Below are positions 155 through 64,000 of a DNA stretch of 64,000 bases, one piece after another (the stretch's first letter is position 1; every line of letters begins with the position of its first letter). A program made the translations under genes and the position numbers. The notes under the pieces were generated by a model. The model was not told where the DNA came from. It made no database searches and saw only the letters and a list, made by a program, of their open reading frames with translations. Origin of the DNA: Methylococcales symbiont of Iophon sp. n. MRB-2018 (GTDB lineage: Bacteria > Pseudomonadota > Gammaproteobacteria > Methylococcales > Methylomonadaceae); NCBI GenBank assembly GCA_003666325.1, contig QPIL01000119.1:1-64000 (forward strand). Reading direction: 5' to 3'.

Positions 155-159
155 TGCTT

Positions 160-293
160 ATGAATGGATAAAAAAGGCTAGAATATTTCCATCTTTCAGC
201 CAAAATAACGCATTATTACACTTGTATTTTGACTAAAACCTGAAAAACCCCATCACTTTTTTTGTCCGTTCCAGAATTATGCCGAGTTCTCTT
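160..293. mobile_element. MITE-like hairpin element, copy 1 (one end lost)
   Basis: This stretch aligns over about 130 bp, at nearly 90 percent by eye, with the reverse complement of 54004-54155. Shared blocks include GGATAAAAAAGGCTAGAA, CATCTTTCAGCCAAAATAAC and GACTAAAACCTGAAA. The right end carries a degenerate terminal repeat (CAGAATTATGCCGAGTTCTC). The left terminal repeat is missing and is replaced by the 7-bp array. No ORF is present, which fits a non-autonomous element. Confidence 0.75.
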
Positions 294-6307: not shown

Positions 6308-6902
6308 TTGGTTTTATTCGCGGTATTCTAATTTCAAAAGCACCCCCCCAATTAGTAGTGGATGTACAAGGTGTGGGCTATGAGCTTGAAGCCCCTATGA
6401 CCACGTTTTATGAGCTTCCCGCGATAGGTCAGGAACTCAAGTTATATACTCACTTAGTGGTAAGAGAAGACGCTCATATCCTTTTTGCTTTTATTGCTGA
6501 ATCAGACAAAATGATGTTCAAAAGTTTGATCAAAGTCAATGGTGTAGGGCCTAAGCTAGCGTTGACTATTTTATCTGGACAAAGTGCTGAAGAGTTTCGC
6601 CGTTGTATACATGATAATGATCTTCAGGCTTTAGTACGCTTACCTGGAATCGGTAAAAAAACGGCTGAACGCCTGATTATTGAAATGCGTGATCGACTGC
6701 CAACAAAAACTGATGCGGTAGAAGGTGGGCAAATTACTTCTATTAGTCCATCTGCTAGCAATCCAAAACAAGAAGCTATTAGTGCATTATGCTCCTTAGG
6801 GTATAAGCCACAAGATGCTATAAAAATGGTGCAAAATATCCCCCAAAAAAATAAAAGTTGTGAATATATCATCAGGCTGGCGTTGCAAGGAGCAGGTAGC
6901 AA

Positions 6903-15793: not shown

Positions 15794-17152
15794 ATGCTGA
15801 CATTTCAAACTATTGTTTCAGCTTTACCCGCTGATACTAAAAAAATTTATATTGGATTTAGTGGTGGTAAAGATTCTCATGTTTTACTGCATATACTGGC
15901 TTCAAAGATAGAGATTAAATCTAAAATATGTGCTGTTTATATACATCATGGCTTACAGGTTGAGGCTGATGAGTGGCAAAAGCACTGTCAGGCCATTGCT
16001 TTAGAAAATGGTGTTTCTTATCAATCTATCAAGGTTAATGCAGAGAAACAAAACAGGCAAAGTCAGGAAGAAATAGCTAGAAATGCGCGTTATCAAGCGT
16101 TCAGGTCGTTATTAACTAAAAACGATGTCTTGTTATTGGCTCAACATCGACAAGATCAGATGGAAACAGTGTTGTTGCAACTTTTTCGGGGAGCCGGTGT
16201 TCAAGGCTTAGCGGCTATGCCATTATCCACTAACTTTGGAAAAGGCAAGATGATCCGTCCACTGCTTGATGTTTCACCAGCTACTATTGATGAATATGCT
16301 AAGCAGCATAAGCTACAGTGGATTGAAGATCCGAGTAACCAAAATAATCAGTTTGACAGAAATTTTCTCCGCAATCAGATTTTACCGCAATTAAAAAACC
16401 GCTGGCCAGCCTTAGATAAGACGGTTTCCAGATCAGCAAGACATTGTGCCGACAGTTATCATTTGAATGATGAGCTATCAAAACAGTGGTTAAACTCGCT
16501 TTATGATGAGAATAAAAAAACGCTGAATATTACTCAATTACTTAAATTAAATGATAACAAGCAACATTATGTAATTCGTCAATGGTTCACTGTTAATCAA
16601 TTAAGAATGCCTTCTGAAAAGGTGCTGATTCAAATTATCAGGGAAGTGCTTAAAGCTAAACCATCTGCCAATCCAAAGATTAGAACTAAAACTTATTGTA
16701 TTAGGCGTTATCGGGATAAATTATTTTGCTTTAAAAATGATATGGCAGAGTTGAGTGAAGATGATAAATGCTGGAAAAAAGGGACTAACAAGCTGCGTTT
16801 AAATGCAAGCATTTTAAGCTTATCGGAAGCGTCTGAAGGTATTTCTAAAACACGTTGGAATGCGTCAAAAGTCACGGTAAAATTTAAAAAAGGTTCGGAA
16901 AAAATAAAGCTTGCAGGCAGAGAGGGTCGCCATACCTTAAAAAAATTATTGCAGGAAAAAGAAATTCCACCTTGGGAGAGAGCCTTAGTCCCTTTGATTT
17001 ATTTAGATGACAGTTTAGCTGCTATTGCTGATTTGTGGGTCAGTGAAGATTTTATAGTTTGTTCAAGGCAACAGTGTGTGCTGATACAGTGGACAGGACT
17101 TGTTAATAATAAGCATGAATTGAAAGAGACCTCAGCTCCAGAGTTATGCTGA
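15794..17152 (+). CDS. tilS: tRNA(Ile)-lysidine synthetase TilS
   Basis: Modifies C34 of the minor tRNA(Ile) to lysidine so that it reads AUA. PP-loop motif FSGGKDSHVLLHI lies at about residues 23-35, AQHRQDQMETVLLQLFRGAG is the conserved central block, and the C-terminal domain contains GREGRHTLKKLLQEKEIPPW. Length 452 (E. coli 432). The last codons (ETSAPELC and stop) run into a sequence resembling two abutted ends of the MITE-like family, which also forms the terminator. Confidence 0.97.
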   Translation: MLTFQTIVSALPADTKKIYIGFSGGKDSHVLLHILASKIEIKSKICAVYIHHGLQVEADEWQKHCQAIALENGVSYQSIKVNAEKQNRQSQEEIARNARYQAFRSLLTKNDVLLLAQHRQDQMETVLLQLFRGAGVQGLAAMPLSTNFGKGKMIRPLLDVSPATIDEYAKQHKLQWIEDPSNQNNQFDRNFLRNQILPQLKNRWPALDKTVSRSARHCADSYHLNDELSKQWLNSLYDENKKTLNITQLLKLNDNKQHYVIRQWFTVNQLRMPSEKVLIQIIREVLKAKPSANPKIRTKTYCIRRYRDKLFCFKNDMAELSEDDKCWKKGTNKLRLNASILSLSEASEGISKTRWNASKVTVKFKKGSEKIKLAGREGRHTLKKLLQEKEIPPWERALVPLIYLDDSLAAIADLWVSEDFIVCSRQQCVLIQWTGLVNNKHELKETSAPELC

Positions 17153-17160
17153 GGCCTTTT
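17130..17160 (+). terminator. Terminator of tilS built from MITE-like ends
   Basis: CCTCAGC pairs with GCTGAGG around an 11-base loop and is followed by CCTTTT. GAGACCTCAGC and GAGTTATGCTGAGG match the two terminal repeats of the element at 54004-54155. The tilS stop codon TGA at 17150-17152 is inside the stem. Confidence 0.75.
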
Positions 17161-17179
17161 GAAAATCATTAAAGATAAA

Positions 17180-17232
17180 AAACAGATAAAAAACAGCAAC
17201 AATGGTAGAACCAGAGGTTTTGAAACAATAAT
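17180..17232. repeat. Imperfect direct repeat, left copy (flanks dinD island)
   Basis: AAACAGATAAAAAACAGCAA and CAATGGTAGAACCAGAGG closely match 18932-18986 (AAACAGAAAAAAACAGCAAT, AATGGTAGAATTAGGGG) in the same orientation. The right copy lies just upstream of pyrG. Confidence 0.7.
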
Positions 17233-17347
17233 TAGGGTCAGAGTTTATTTCGTGAAACAAGGCTTGGCTGTTGTTATTCTTATATCTGGAGGAGATAAAA
17301 GCACTCAAAATTCAGATATTATTAAAGCAAAAGAACTGGGCAAGTAA
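17231..17347 (+). pseudogene. C-terminal fragment of a RelE-type 'addiction module killer' toxin
   Basis: The frame reads RVRVYFVKQGLAVVILISGG and then DKSTQNSDIIKAKELGK. This matches the conserved C-terminal half of RelE-superfamily killer proteins (RVYF..., L-x-G-G-D-K-S-x-Q-x-x-D-I-x-x-A). The N-terminal half is missing; upstream sequence is the direct repeat. The matching antitoxin fragment starts 15 bp downstream. Confidence 0.75.
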
Positions 17348-17362
17348 TTAGAGGATTGAATT

Positions 17363-17479
17363 ATGAGCATTAATATAACTTGCTGGGATTCAGCAGAGTA
17401 TTTAAAAACTGAAGAGGACATGCAGTTATATCTTGAAGCATTAAATAATGAAAAACGAAATCATTCAATCATTTACTGA
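17363..17479 (+). pseudogene. N-terminal fragment of the cognate HTH antitoxin
   Basis: A 38-codon frame, MSINITCWDSAEYLKTEEDM then QLYLEALN, matches the N-terminus of addiction-module antidote proteins, which continue into an HTH of about 60 residues. That HTH is absent here. GAGG precedes the ATG. The dinD start codon at 17448 lies inside this fragment, so dinD has joined onto the antitoxin and may use its translation. Confidence 0.7.
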
Positions 17480-18299
17480 GAACTTCGATACTCACTCTCA
17501 AACTACAGATAGCGGTATTGAGTTTTGGTTTGCCAGAGATTTACAACAGTTACTAGGTTATAGCGATTGGCGTAATTTTCACCAGGTTATTACTAAGGCT
17601 AAAATTTCTTGTGAAGCCAGTAATAACAAACCTTCCGACCATTTCGTTGACGCCAACAAAATGGTCGTATTAGGCTCTAATTCTGAGCGTGAAATTAAAG
17701 ATATAATGCTGACTCGCTACGCCTGTTATTTAATTGCTCAAAATGGCGACCCAAGAAAAGAAACCATCGCTTTTGCACAAACTTATTTTGCTATGCAAAC
17801 GCGAAAACTAGAACTAATACAAGAGCAAATACACGGTTTAGAACGCTTACAAGCAAGGCAAAAACTCACCCACAGCGAAAAAGAACTCTCAAGCTTAATT
17901 TATAAGCACACTCGAAATGATAGGAATTTTGGCTTTATTCGCTCAAAGGGTGATAAGGCATTATTTGGCGGTAAAACAACTGCTGAAATGAAACAAAAAA
18001 TGCAAATGTCAGACAATAGAGCTTTAGCAGATTTTTTACCTGCCATCACCATTAAAGCCAAAGATTTTGCCACAGAAATTACCGTTTTTAACACCAAAGA
18101 ACATAGGCTAATCACCGAAAACGACATTACCACAGAACACATTAAAAATAACCAAAGTGTTAGAGATATTTTATTAAGTCGTGGTATTAAACCTGAAGAT
18201 TTACCTCCAGAAGAGGATATTAAAAAACTAGAACGAATACTTAAATCAATAGATAAAAAAATAGCGAGAAATCCAGATAAATTAGGTAATAAAAGATGA
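17448..18299 (+). CDS. dinD: DinD-like DNA damage-inducible protein
   Basis: The 283-residue product (E. coli DinD 274) has an N-terminal BRO-type fold with FWFARDLQQLLGYSDWRNF, followed by LTRYACYLIAQNGDPRK, FAQTYFAMQTRK and LFGGKTTAEMKQKM, all characteristic of DinD. E. coli DinD is SOS-induced and inhibits RecA strand exchange. No clear LexA box was recognised upstream. The start is embedded in a truncated antitoxin gene, which with the flanking direct repeats marks this as horizontally acquired. Confidence 0.92.
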   Translation: MKNEIIQSFTENFDTHSQTTDSGIEFWFARDLQQLLGYSDWRNFHQVITKAKISCEASNNKPSDHFVDANKMVVLGSNSEREIKDIMLTRYACYLIAQNGDPRKETIAFAQTYFAMQTRKLELIQEQIHGLERLQARQKLTHSEKELSSLIYKHTRNDRNFGFIRSKGDKALFGGKTTAEMKQKMQMSDNRALADFLPAITIKAKDFATEITVFNTKEHRLITENDITTEHIKNNQSVRDILLSRGIKPEDLPPEEDIKKLERILKSIDKKIARNPDKLGNKR

Positions 18300-18490
18300 G
18301 TAGTCATTTTCAGCTTTCTCCTGAATTGGAGATGAAAACGCTAGTTATAATTCTATTGATAAAGTAATTGCTGAAATTGAAAGCACTTAACAATTAGCTT
18401 CAGCGGACAATTCAAAGCGTTATGAGTAATATGGAGAAACAATGGAAACTTGAATTTACAGCGTAATTGACGAAAAATAGGAGAAGCCTA

Positions 18491-18612
18491 ATGAAGACGG
18501 ATAAAGTTGTTGGTTATGCTGAGGTCTCAAGCAATTTAAAATAGATATTAATGCAGGTAAACTTGATTTTTTAATCAATGAGGCGACGCTAGAAAAGAAA
18601 CAAGTTGCGTGA
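18491..18612 (+). pseudogene. Remnant antitoxin disrupted by a MITE-like end
   Basis: The downstream half reads FKIDINAGKLDFLINEATLE, typical of small antitoxins that precede ParE-like toxins (G-K-L-D-x-L-I-x-E-A), and stops at 18610-18612 in a GTGA overlap with the toxin. The upstream half from ATG 18491 is in another frame, and the break coincides with the MITE-like end at 18511-18530. Confidence 0.6.
18511..18530 (+). mobile_element. Solo MITE-like end inside antitoxin remnant
   Basis: GGTTATGCTGAGGTCTCAA matches the terminal repeat of the 54004-54155 element (GAGTTATGCTGAGGTCTCA) at all but one or two positions. Confidence 0.65.
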
Positions 18613-18874
18613 AATCTAAAGTTCATCGTGCTACCACTAGATTTTGGTCGTGCTTTGAGCGTTTGCCAATGCCTATTCAAGAAATAGCAAGAAAAAATTA
18701 CAAACTTCTCAAGAATGATGTCCATCACCCCTCACTGCATTTAAAAAAAAGGTAGGGAGTTTTTACTTAGCAAGAGTTGGTATTAATTATCGTACACTTG
18801 TAATAAAAGACCATAATGATTTTATTTGGCTATGGTTAGGTACAGATGAAGAGTATGAGTGTTTAATCAAATAG
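18609..18874 (+). pseudogene. ParE-like toxin, frameshifted at an A8 run
   Basis: From a GTG at 18609 the frame reads TTRFWSCFERLPMPIQEIAR and KNYKLLKNDVHHPSLH. It then fails in a run of eight A at 18743-18750 and continues one frame over as KVGSFYLARVGINYRTLV and FIWLWLGTDEEYECLIK. The joined product (about 88 residues) is a typical RelE/ParE-superfamily toxin. A one-base change in the A-run would restore it, so it could also be phase variable or a sequencing error. Confidence 0.75.
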
Positions 18875-18931
18875 CATAACAAATCATTCCAGCCGACGGC
18901 TAACGAGTGTTGCACTTATGATGTGAATTTA

Positions 18932-20645
<1,714 letters not shown>

Positions 20646-32353: not shown

Positions 32354-32386
32354 ATTATCCGTTCCAGAGTTATGCTGAGGTCTCCT
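32354..32386 (+). mobile_element. Solo MITE-like end, in the 32300-32580 gap
   Basis: TTATCCGTTCCAGAGTTATG, then CTGAGGTCTCC, is the right end of the family at 54004-54155 and the best match to copy 1 at 270-293. The rest of the gap holds a TTCCACGAAGACTGTGGGAA hairpin at 32523-32542 and the leader of the next gene. Confidence 0.7.
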
Positions 32387-41389: not shown

Positions 41390-41481
41390 AATTCTACATT
41401 ATTTGATTGATGTAGTAGTTTACTCTATTGCTAGCTTATACCATATTCAAAAAATAAATAGACTAATATAGTGCTTATATT

Positions 41482-41582
41482 AAAGACGAAAGACGAAAGA
41501 CGAAAGACGAAAGACGAAAGACGAAAGACTAAAGACTAAAGACTAAAGACTAAAGACTAAAGACTAAAGACTAAAGACTAAG
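41482..41582. repeat. 7-bp tandem array (GACGAAA, then GACTAAA)
   Basis: About six GACGAAA units followed by eight GACTAAA units with almost no imperfections. The two variants are segregated into blocks, which suggests expansion by local duplication. It begins about 90 bp upstream of the ubiG start codon. Confidence 0.95.
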
Positions 41583-41633
41583 TATTGAGTCCTTAGTCCT
41601 TTTTTAGGCTGATAGAGGTGGTTTTTTGTTTGG

Positions 41634-41671
41634 GTTTTTAAGGGTTGTCTAAGTAGTCAACCCTTAAAAAC
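41634..41671. other. Long hairpin at the edge of the duplicated module
   Basis: GTTTTTAAGGGTTG pairs exactly with CAACCCTTAAAAAC around a 10-base loop. Only the right arm is kept in the second copy of the module at 56254. Confidence 0.8.
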
Positions 41672-41856
41672 ACAACAACCATCTGATTTATAACAATAAA
41701 TTAAACAAAAACCATAGACAAAACAAGCAGTATTTGGTAAAATAACGGCTATTTCTTGGTCGTTTTGCTGATAAAACATACTAACAAAATCAACCCCAAA
41801 CACAGAGCAACTAAACCTCTTTCATTCAGAGTTATTTGTTGAACAGGGTATAAGAG
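41656..41856 (-). repeat. ~200-bp duplicated module, copy 1
   Basis: Matches 56254-56457 at about 90 percent by eye over the full length, including CATCTGATTTATAACAATAA and CAAAATCAACCCCAAACAC. A short third piece is at 63208-63250. On the minus strand both full copies encode a hydrophobic C-terminal tail. Confidence 0.85.
41749..41856 (-). pseudogene. IPTL-CTERM-like sorting tail fragment, copy 1
   Basis: The minus strand reads QQITLNERGLVALCLGLILL, then VCFISKTTKK and a stop. The layout (T-L-N-E then a hydrophobic helix and a basic end) resembles the IPTL-CTERM sorting signal (I-P-T-L-S-E-W-G, helix, basic). No start codon or passenger domain is attached, so this is the detached end of a larger gene. 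Confidence 0.45.
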
Positions 41857-41875
41857 CCGCGTCACTCCCTCTGTC

Positions 41876-41943
41876 ATTCCTGCATGTTCTAAGCAGGAAT
41901 CCAGGTGTTTAAAACTAGATTCCCGATAACAGACTTCGGGAAT
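41876..41943. repeat. REP-like double hairpin
   Basis: Two adjacent hairpins: ATTCCTGC with GCAGGAAT, and ATTCCCG with CGGGAAT, separated by CCAGG and an AT-rich spacer. This CATTCC(T/C)GC...GCAGGAATCCAG style is common among dispersed extragenic repeats in proteobacteria. Confidence 0.65.
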
Positions 41944-41969
41944 AACGTGTAGTAACAGAGGTTCCAGTT

Positions 41970-42120
41970 ACTTTAGTCTTTAGTCTTTAGTTCTTAGTTC
42001 TTAGTTCTTAGTTCTTAGTTCTTAGTTCTTAGTTCTTAGTTCTTAGTCTTTGAGTCTTTGAGTCTTTGAGTCTTTGAGTCTTTGAGTCCTGAGTCCTGAG
42101 TCCTGAGTCCTGAGTCCTAA
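41970..42120. repeat. Long 7-bp tandem array (TTTAGTC, TTCTTAG, TTTGAGTC, CTGAGTC blocks)
   Basis: Roughly 20 units in four blocks: TTTAGTC, then TTCTTAG repeated about eight times, then GAGTCTTT (one 8-bp step then 7-bp period), then GAGTCCT. Each block is internally almost uniform, showing stepwise expansion of variants. Between 42121 and 42250 there is no gene. Confidence 0.92.
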
Positions 42121-42249
42121 CCGTTAAATGTAAGTAAAACTTTGAGCAGATGTTTACTGTGTTTTTTGTGGGAGTATTAATGTACCAGCGGTAAATATGG
42201 CTACTTGGCAGGGCAGGTAAAAGATAGAGTAAAAAAAGGGGAGGGGGAG

Positions 42250-54003: not shown

Positions 54004-54155
54004 TGAGACCTCAGCATAACTCTGGACGAGATAAAAAAAGTGATAGAATCTTTCAGGTTTTAGTCAAAATACGAGTGTAATAGTGCGTTATTTTGGCTGA
54101 AAGATGGAAAACTTCTAGCCTTTTTTATCCGTTCATGAGTTATGCTGAGGTCTCA
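54004..54155. mobile_element. MITE-like hairpin element, copy 2 (complete)
   Basis: Terminal repeats TGAGACCTCAGCATAACTC (54004-54022) and GAGTTATGCTGAGGTCTCA (54137-54155) are perfect over 19 bp and continue imperfectly to about 35 bp (GGACGAGATAAAAAAAG against CTTTTTTATCCGTTC). An inner pair (TTTCAG, CAAAATA / TATTTTGGCTGAAA) makes the whole element fold as a hairpin. No ORF. It lies in the dksA-DUF3581 gap. No clear target duplication was identified. Confidence 0.85.
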
Positions 54156-56457: not shown

Positions 56458-56660
56458 CCCCTACTTCTAAGGTTGTCCCCAGAATATCCGTAGTAGTTCT
56501 GGTGCGTGGAACGCGCCCTACTTCTAAGGTTGTCCTCAGAATATCCGTAGTCTTTAGTCTTTAGATCCGTAGGGTGCGTTTGCCCACCAGGGATGGTGGA
56601 AATGCAGTAAGATTGTCTGGAACAATCTCTGCCCACGCACCAGAACTAATCAAAAATAAA
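56458..56660. repeat. Composite repeat block (GATCCGTAGGGTGCG module)
   Basis: Contains two copies of CTACTTCTAAGGTTGTCC, short TTTAGTC heptamers at 56549-56563, and the full module from GATCCGTAGGGTGCGTTTG at 56564 through GGATGGTGGAAATGCAG and the AGATTGT/ACAATCT hairpin to CACGCACCAGAACTAATC. The same module occurs at 63263, 63571 and, inverted, at 1-51. Confidence 0.8.
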
Positions 56661-56712
56661 GGAGTCTTTAGTCTTTAGTCTTGAGTCTTGAGTCTTGAGT
56701 CTTGAGTCTTGA
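56661..56712. repeat. 7-bp tandem array (TTTAGTC, then TTGAGTC)
   Basis: Two TTTAGTC units, then about five TTGAGTC units, directly after the AATCAAAAATAAAGGAGTC flank. Confidence 0.92.
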
Positions 56713-56770
56713 ACGTTTATTTTGAAGATATAGTGATTAATTTAACGGCTTATAAATTAAAGTTAAATTA

Positions 56771-56955
56771 GAATCTCCCACCTGCGCCGTCTCGCACCTT
56801 CGTCCTTGAACCGGAGGGTTCAAGTGGAGGCTTTATTAGTAAATCAGGCTTCCCATAAAACAGGCATGCACACCCTTACTAAAATAAACTTCCTAGGTAA
56901 AAACAGGTTCAGGAAACACCCGGTACTAATCGAACGCGGCAGGAGATACAACTTG
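56771..56955 (-). ncRNA. ssrS: 6S RNA
   Basis: Read on the minus strand, the ends pair (TATCTCCTGCCGCG near the 5' end with CGGCGCAGGTGGGAGATTC at the 3' end). The 3' half contains the characteristic hairpin CTTGAACCCTCCGGTTCAAG, and the middle is the expected long AT-rich bubble. 6S RNA mimics an open promoter and binds the sigma-70 holoenzyme in stationary phase. Its position just downstream of zapA is the conserved gammaproteobacterial location. End points are approximate. Confidence 0.88.
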
Positions 56956-63262: not shown

Positions 63263-63668
63263 GATCCGTAGGGTACGTTTGCCCACTAGGGATGGTGGAA
63301 ATGCAGGCATCCCTCCGGAGAGGGCTTAAAAGCCTCTCTCCCCCACGTTTTATCAACATGGTATGCAATGCAAGGACATGCAAGGACATGCAAGGATGTA
63401 GGGGCGAGCGGCTGCTCGCCCGCTCTTCCTATATTCCCGACAGCAGCACCAGATCCGTAGTAGCTCTGGTGCGTGGAACACACCCCTTGATTTTAAAAAC
63501 CCTGAAACAATCTCTGCTGACCGCCAAGGATGGTGGAAATGCAGATCCGTAGGGTGCGTTCCACGCACCGGATCCGTAGAGTACGTTTGCCCACCAAGGA
63601 TGGTGGAAATGCAGTAAGATTGTCTGAAACAATCTCTGCCCACGCACCAAAACCAATCAAAAACCAAG
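63263..63668. repeat. Composite repeat block with several module copies
   Basis: GATCCGTAGGGTACGTTTGC starts at 63263, GATCCGTAGGGTGCGTTCC at 63544 and GATCCGTAGAGTACGTTTGC at 63571; GGATGGTGGAAATGCAG occurs three times. Three tandem GCAAGGACAT units are at about 63370-63395, and GGGCGAGCGG/CTGCTCGCCC forms a hairpin at about 63402-63421. Short ORFs across this block are not considered genes. Confidence 0.8.
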
Positions 63669-63868
63669 GAGTCCTGAGTCTTTAGTCTTTAGTCTTTAGT
63701 CTTTAGTCTTTAGTCTTTAGTCTTTAGTCTTTAGTCTTTAGTCTTTAGTCTTTAGTCTTGAGTCTTGAGTCTTGAGTCTTTCGTCTTGAGTCTTGAGTCT
63801 TTCGTCTTGAGTCTTGAGTCTTTCGTCTTGAGTCTTTCGTCTTGAGTCTTTCGTCTTGAGTCTTTAGT
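63669..63868. repeat. Longest 7-bp tandem array (~28 units)
   Basis: Blocks of TTTAGTC (about 14 units), TTGAGTC, and alternating TTTCGTC-TTGAGTC in higher-order 14- and 21-bp units, after the AATCAAAAACCAAGGAGTC flank. It ends at the stop codon of the partial gene entering from the right. Confidence 0.95.
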
Positions 63869-63869
63869 C

Positions 63870-64000
63870 CTAAATCCTAAAACTTTTCAAAATCTCTTCC
63901 AGTGGAACCAAATTCATTTTTACTCTGAACAGCACATCATGATTATGAAGCAAACCATAGCAGTCGTAAGTTCTTACTTGAATATCAGTTTGGTTTAATG
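63870..64000 (-). CDS. C-terminal end of a gene entering from the right (partial)
   Basis: On the minus strand an open frame runs from the window edge to a TAG at 63870-63872, giving 42 residues (LNQTDIQVRTYDCYGLLHNH, then DVLFRVKMNLVPLEEILKSF and RI). No family recognised. The stop lies in the first degenerate unit of the heptamer array, so the C-terminus may have been set by the repeat. The start is outside the window. Confidence 0.5.
   Translation of the reverse strand, partial: LNQTDIQVRTYDCYGLLHNHDVLFRVKMNLVPLEEILKSFRI

Follow-up and report, generated by a model that had tools for sequence, protein, structure and literature searches.

A MITE remnant at the 3' end of tilS in a Methylococcales sponge symbiont

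In the Methylococcales symbiont of Iophon sp. n. MRB-2018, a methane-consuming bacterium, the tRNA-modifying gene tilS very probably (we put it at about 0.93) owes its C-terminus and its stop codon to a MITE that inserted after the gene and lost its internal part, while a separate change turned the native stop codon TAA into GAA. We analysed a stretch of 64,000 nucleotides of this genome, referred to here as the window, and compared the end of tilS with the corresponding site in G001, the symbiont of Hymedesmia sp. n. MRB-2018, which is the closest relative and has a TilS that is 92% identical. The identity of the element, the empty site in G001, the target duplication, the change of the stop codon, the reading frame and the new stop codon can all be read directly from the sequences compared.

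We propose that a MITE, of a family common to this genome and that of the sister symbiont, inserted at TGAAA, one base after the native stop codon of tilS, and that the insertion duplicated these five bases. The element would later have lost its interior, unless it was already short on arrival, and what remains is 34 bp made up of its two ends. In a separate change, the native TAA would have become GAA, and translation would now proceed through three codons of the former flank and eight of the element to a TGA in the right inverted repeat. The hairpin at this site would be a by-product of two nearby inverted ends. The first-pass annotation of this DNA had proposed both that the end of tilS originated from an element and that it forms a terminator; the first of these is supported and the second is not, and the separate mutation that removed the native stop codon had been missed.

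Table 1. Features of the tilS end and other members of the repeat family in the window
Feature	Position	Strand	Basis or remark
tilS, tRNA(Ile)-lysidine synthetase, 452 aa	15794..17152	+	native part is residues 1-441
Former tilS stop codon	17117..17119	+	GAA in the window, TAA in G001
Left copy of the 5-bp target-site duplication TGAAA	17121..17125	+	single in G001; 5 bp is the size in the family
34-bp internally deleted MITE copy	17126..17159	+	left end GAGACCTCAGC, right-end TCCAGAGTTATGCTGAGG and degenerate terminus CCTTT
Element-encoded TilS residues 445-452, ETSAPELC	17126..17149	+	codon table
Hairpin core CCTCAGC (17130-17136) / GCTGAGG (17148-17154), 11-nt loop	17130..17154	+	folding
New stop codon TGA from the element's right terminal inverted repeat	17150..17152	+	codon table
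Right copy of the target-site duplication TGAAA	17160..17164	+	comparison with G001; duplication size of the family
Full-length 150-bp MITE family member	54005..54154	+	end pairing
Exact MITE right end, no partner in the pairing search	32367..32384	+	end match
Degenerate MITE family copy	157..291	-	87% complementary to 54005-54139

The repeat family and its copy at tilS

A search of the 2.09-Mb genome with a 14-mer from the end of the repeat, allowing at most one mismatch, gave 63 forward and 56 reverse matches (119 in all), and a reversed control gave none. Copies were sought in the loci around about 100 of the 119 matches, those listed, and these loci also took in any of the others that happened to lie within them. 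Among the matches listed, at least 51 copies had both ends and measured 57-220 bp, 41 of the 51 being 149-160 bp long. An exact 5-bp flanking duplication accompanied 30 of these 51 end-paired copies among the matches listed, against 0.56 expected from mispaired flanks, and a duplication of 6 bp or more accompanied none of them. The repeats are short, have terminal inverted repeats (GAGACCTCAGCATAACTC / GAGTTATGCTGAGGTCTC) and a target-site duplication of fixed size, and occur as many dispersed copies, as is characteristic of MITEs; at 57-220 bp they leave no room for a transposase gene. Some copies are shortened, to 57, 60 and 75 bp. When two full copies were translated, the leading frame met a stop at codon 5 in either orientation, and all 12 frames except one of the L009 copy, which is open throughout, contained a stop within 31 codons, so that insertions of this family tend to end genes.

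The family was found in two of 61 genomes of the order, that of the window and that of G001, in which a 21-mer of the end had 99 matches. According to the accessible text of a paper on sponges, the symbionts of a Hymedesmia and an Iophon have reduced genomes (PMC6474228). No parent transposon was found in the loci around family copies, where only L006 and L121, which represent the same place, had two ends separated by 230-4000 bp and flanked by matching 5-bp duplications. This 1396-bp family copy (L006:1497-2892, duplication TTATA) was considered as the parent and rejected, because its layout suggests that other DNA, holding broken ORFs, interrupts a MITE copy; we take the interrupting DNA, from reading it, to be an apparently broken transposase-like gene. 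Literature queries that named neither tilS nor the repeat sequence returned no published account of the family.

At the end of tilS, GAGACCTCAGC (17126-17136) is an exact copy of the left end of the MITE, 11 bases of which are thus retained exactly, and TCCAGAGTTATGCTGAGG (17137-17154) is identical to the family end over 18 bases. The second of these contains GAGTTATGCTGAGG (17141-17154), an exact match to the repeat end, and the initial observation that GAGACCTCAGC and GAGTTATGCTGAGG are two element ends lying almost back to back is borne out. From the base composition, about 1e-6 occurrences of TCCAGAGTTATGCTGAGG would be expected in 64 kb, so that its presence at tilS is not due to chance. 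The right end of the tilS copy, GCTGAGGCCTTT, has two substitutions and one extra base relative to the consensus GCTGAGGTCTC, and the exact boundary of the element is therefore uncertain; judged by eye, an element of 33 bp between 6-bp repeats of TTGAAA is about as good a fit. The extent first given, 17130-17160, marks the right site, and the best boundaries, 17126-17159, are slightly wider. The 34-bp form with its short loop was found nowhere else in the genome of the window or in G001.

Several other repeats were seen in the window. The full-length copy at 54005-54154 was tried as a clean empty-site case and set aside, because G001 carries 59 bp of other DNA there. At 18511-18528, GGTTATGCTGAGGTCTC comprises most of a repeat end inside a small ORF starting MKTDKVVGYAEVSSNLK, either a remnant or a coincidence. 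Heptamer arrays (TAGTCTT, GAGTCTT) in both orientations lie at 41468-42130, 56613-56722, 63627-63876 and 92-166, and adjoin longer dispersed repeats. Rfam, at gathering scores, places a 6S RNA at 56771-56948 on the minus strand and a TPP riboswitch at 421-510 on the plus strand.

Empty site and reading frame of tilS

TilS is essential in most bacteria. The gene row in the window is accA, tilS, a Bro-N gene, pyrG and kdsA, the first three identified by Pfam and the last two presumed from reading their translations. A Pfam search found ATP_bind_3, TilS and TilS_C in TilS, with TilS_C at residues 360-433.

The tilS site of G001 is empty: TilS ends at a TAA right after ...NNKH, the 11-base TGAAAATCATT is uninterrupted, and the sequence at the site (locus L061) is CATTAACTGAAAATCATT, without the element. 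G001 reads ...AATAAGCAT TAA C TGAAA ATCATTGG..., whereas the window reads ...AATAAGCAT GAA T TGAAA (34 bp) TGAAA ATCATTAA..., a net gain of 39 nt that consists of the element and the second TGAAA. Beyond the duplication, ATCATT alone is common to the two genomes, and then the flanks diverge. We placed the gap on the basis of the 11 bases of TGAAAATCATT in common with G001, the duplication size of the family and the element's own boundaries; a MAFFT alignment puts it elsewhere.

The gain of 39 nt is divisible by three and keeps tilS in frame, and because the native TAA became GAA, translation continues through ELK and ETSAPELC to the new TGA. Residues 442-444 (ELK) are the former 3' flank, translated past the lost native stop codon, and the start of the element coincides exactly with codon 445. 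That ETSAPELC is encoded by element sequence had been noticed at the outset, and the codon table confirms it for residues 445-452. Read in this register, an intact copy would give ETSA and then an immediate stop; the deletion in the tilS copy fuses ETSA to the PELC of the right end and its TGA. Without the 39 nt of the element and one TGAAA, the frame of tilS is an in-frame ORF of 504 aa, compared with 452 aa. A Pfam search with the 62-aa frame 3' of the element gave only an SmpB match with an E value of 0.1, which we took as chance. The G at 17117 may be a base error, as the genome is a draft of 123 contigs.

TilS matches were found in 59 relatives, and loci were obtained for 30 matches, those of the symbiont itself and of 29 relatives. 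The same C-terminus and hairpin, which in relatives that lack the element family would argue against a mobile element, were sought in these loci: the hairpin is present in 0 of the 29, and ETSAPELC is encoded in 0 of the 29. Together with the empty site in G001 and the 5-bp duplication of family size, this result supports the original idea of a mobile-element footprint turned into a gene end. The tail after the W[IV] motif is 18-34 aa long in the 27 relatives measured and 36 aa in the TilS of the window (two of the 30 tails, those of G033 and G011, had no motif match and were left out). The variable length of this tail makes a neutral addition plausible, and the new tail, added past TilS_C where the lengths of relatives vary, would be neutral. 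The 452-aa form of TilS is presumably made and functional.

The region downstream of tilS has a feature of its own. A 38-nt block just upstream of pyrG (18939-18976) is repeated (87%) right after tilS (17188-17225), and the Bro-N gene and small ORFs lie between the two blocks. Because the start of pyrG is found downstream of tilS in 16 of the 29 relatives' loci, the stretch from tilS to pyrG has the appearance of an insertion in which the leader of pyrG was duplicated.

The hairpin and the order of events

The region 17114-17172 folds with an MFE of -19.3 kcal/mol (z -4.19), and the stem CCTCAGC/GCTGAGG gains five outward pairs beyond one mismatch. The first-pass annotation had described this hairpin with the TGA of tilS inside its stem, and the TGA is indeed in the 3' arm. 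The hairpin is stable because two inverted element ends lie close together. An intrinsic terminator has a G+C-rich stem, a short loop and a free run of U, a combination that the end of tilS lacks: the loop is 11 nt long, and the tail after the stem has only four T, which pair in the predicted stem. A pattern scan reported no plus-strand terminator in 16900-19100, with a loop limit of 8 that excludes the 11-nt loop; a hairpin spotted by eye beyond the tilS gene of G001 (L061, about 6378-6402) likewise went unreported, and the scan is therefore a weak negative. Rfam, at gathering thresholds, placed no family at 17130-17160. The sequence features thus speak against the terminator claimed at first, and such a role of the hairpin appears not supported.

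It is very improbable that the hairpin is simply an ordinary intrinsic terminator of tilS that resembles the repeat ends by accident. The fold is good, as its z value indicates, and CCTTTT comes next, but an identity of 18 bases with the family end is hardly to be expected by chance, the site is empty in G001, none of the 29 relatives' loci has the hairpin, and the T run is short and paired, with no terminator reported by the scan. The remnant might also serve as a terminator or an RNA-processing hairpin that was selected at the end of tilS. We consider this improbable, because inverted ends produce a hairpin automatically and the hairpin is thus no evidence of selection, and because a single copy in one genome is too few for a selection test. 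Moreover, the stop codon lies within the stem, and an E. coli assay showed almost complete repression of terminators situated a few bp after a gene, as the accessible text of that study states (PMC4824070). In favour of a selected hairpin are the stable fold and the view, in the available part of a review that cites the SPRITE elements of pneumococcus, that MITE-derived Rho-independent terminators are conceivable (PMC10969869). A misjoining of repeat ends during assembly could be suspected in a genome of 123 contigs with a repeated family, yet we give it hardly any credence: the flanks are correct, a duplication of family size is present on both sides, and the short-loop join was seen only at tilS in both genomes, so that an artefactual join would need reads of its own.

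For the order of events, we prefer an insertion after the stop codon followed by the loss of the stop, an order that needs no harmful step. Alternatively, the native stop codon may have been lost first, lengthening tilS by some 60 codons, in which case the element came to the rescue of the gene with a stop codon. This would agree with the 504-aa frame that is reached without the element and with the early stops in both orientations of the two full copies, stops being present in 11 of their 12 frames. Nevertheless, it appears rather unlikely, since insertion before stop loss fits the data equally well without a harmful intermediate; the downstream DNA of the two genomes differs past ATCATT, which hides the ancestral frame.

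Other gene ends and known parallels

Among the matches listed there were 95 elements or remnants, and the stop-codon survey used 81 of them (paired, or with at most two mismatches). Of the 81, 4 enclose the stop codon of an ORF 80 aa or longer, a plain count for which we claim no enrichment. These four are tilS, a phosphopantetheinyl transferase (L088), an AlkB-like 2OG-Fe(II) oxygenase (L068) and a 130-aa ORF (L097) that had no Pfam match. A full copy with the duplication CTAAT interrupts the phosphopantetheinyl transferase gene, and the transferase of G001 has an empty site and a different C-terminus, which makes this insertion a clean, independent case. The AlkB-like genes of both sister genomes (L068:1394-1542 and L141) end in family copies that lie within about 10 bp of each other and have different arms, and may represent two insertions or one altered insertion. 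As a speculation to which we attach little confidence, the family could act in this genome-reduced symbiont lineage as dispersed ready-made stop signals: since most frames that run into a copy soon reach a stop, native stop codons would decay beside copies, and the copies would become the real ends of conserved genes (tilS, the phosphopantetheinyl transferase and the AlkB-like oxygenase) and so be hard to lose.

The end of tilS is a cleanly resolved case of a mobile-element scrap serving as coding end and stop codon, with the empty site and the duplication both visible. It illustrates one route by which C-termini may drift in genome-reduced symbionts, and why a copy of a repeat can become fixed.

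Similar gene ends have been described in other bacteria. In Coxiella burnetii, according to the available text of PMC5896051, copies of QMITE1 and QMITE2 lie across the 3' ends of functional genes (enhC, pntAA, nagZ, ruvB and others), the last 33 residues of EnhC in the Dugway strain presumably come from QMITE2 and are followed by a stop, and the composition of the C-terminus is altered with little change in protein size. As at tilS, a MITE at the 3' end of a gene supplies the C-terminus. However, as far as that text goes, the Coxiella elements belong to a different family and the stop codon of enhC is just downstream of the element, whereas that of tilS is inside the terminal repeat; the tilS copy, moreover, is cut to 34 bp, and the native stop of tilS was lost by substitution. 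The RU-1/ERIC enterobacterial repeat at the 3' end of the ECA3499 amidase gene of Erwinia carotovora is also alike, in what the available text of PMC2759123 reports: the fusion lies beyond the conserved domain, the usual stop codon was apparently eliminated and a stop codon inside the repeat ends the protein. That element is a different one, and, being full-length, the repeat contributes about 34 residues (463-496), compared with 8 from a deleted copy in tilS. The review mentioned above covers in-frame fusions and suggests terminators, in the part available; among its examples, the palindromic elements of Rickettsia resemble the tilS element as small palindromic mobile repeats read in frame in protein genes, but they encode a conserved in-frame peptide, whereas the family described here tends to end the frame that it enters (PMC10969869). 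MITEs that supply C-termini and stop codons are thus already in print, and tilS is a clear new example of them, not a new class.
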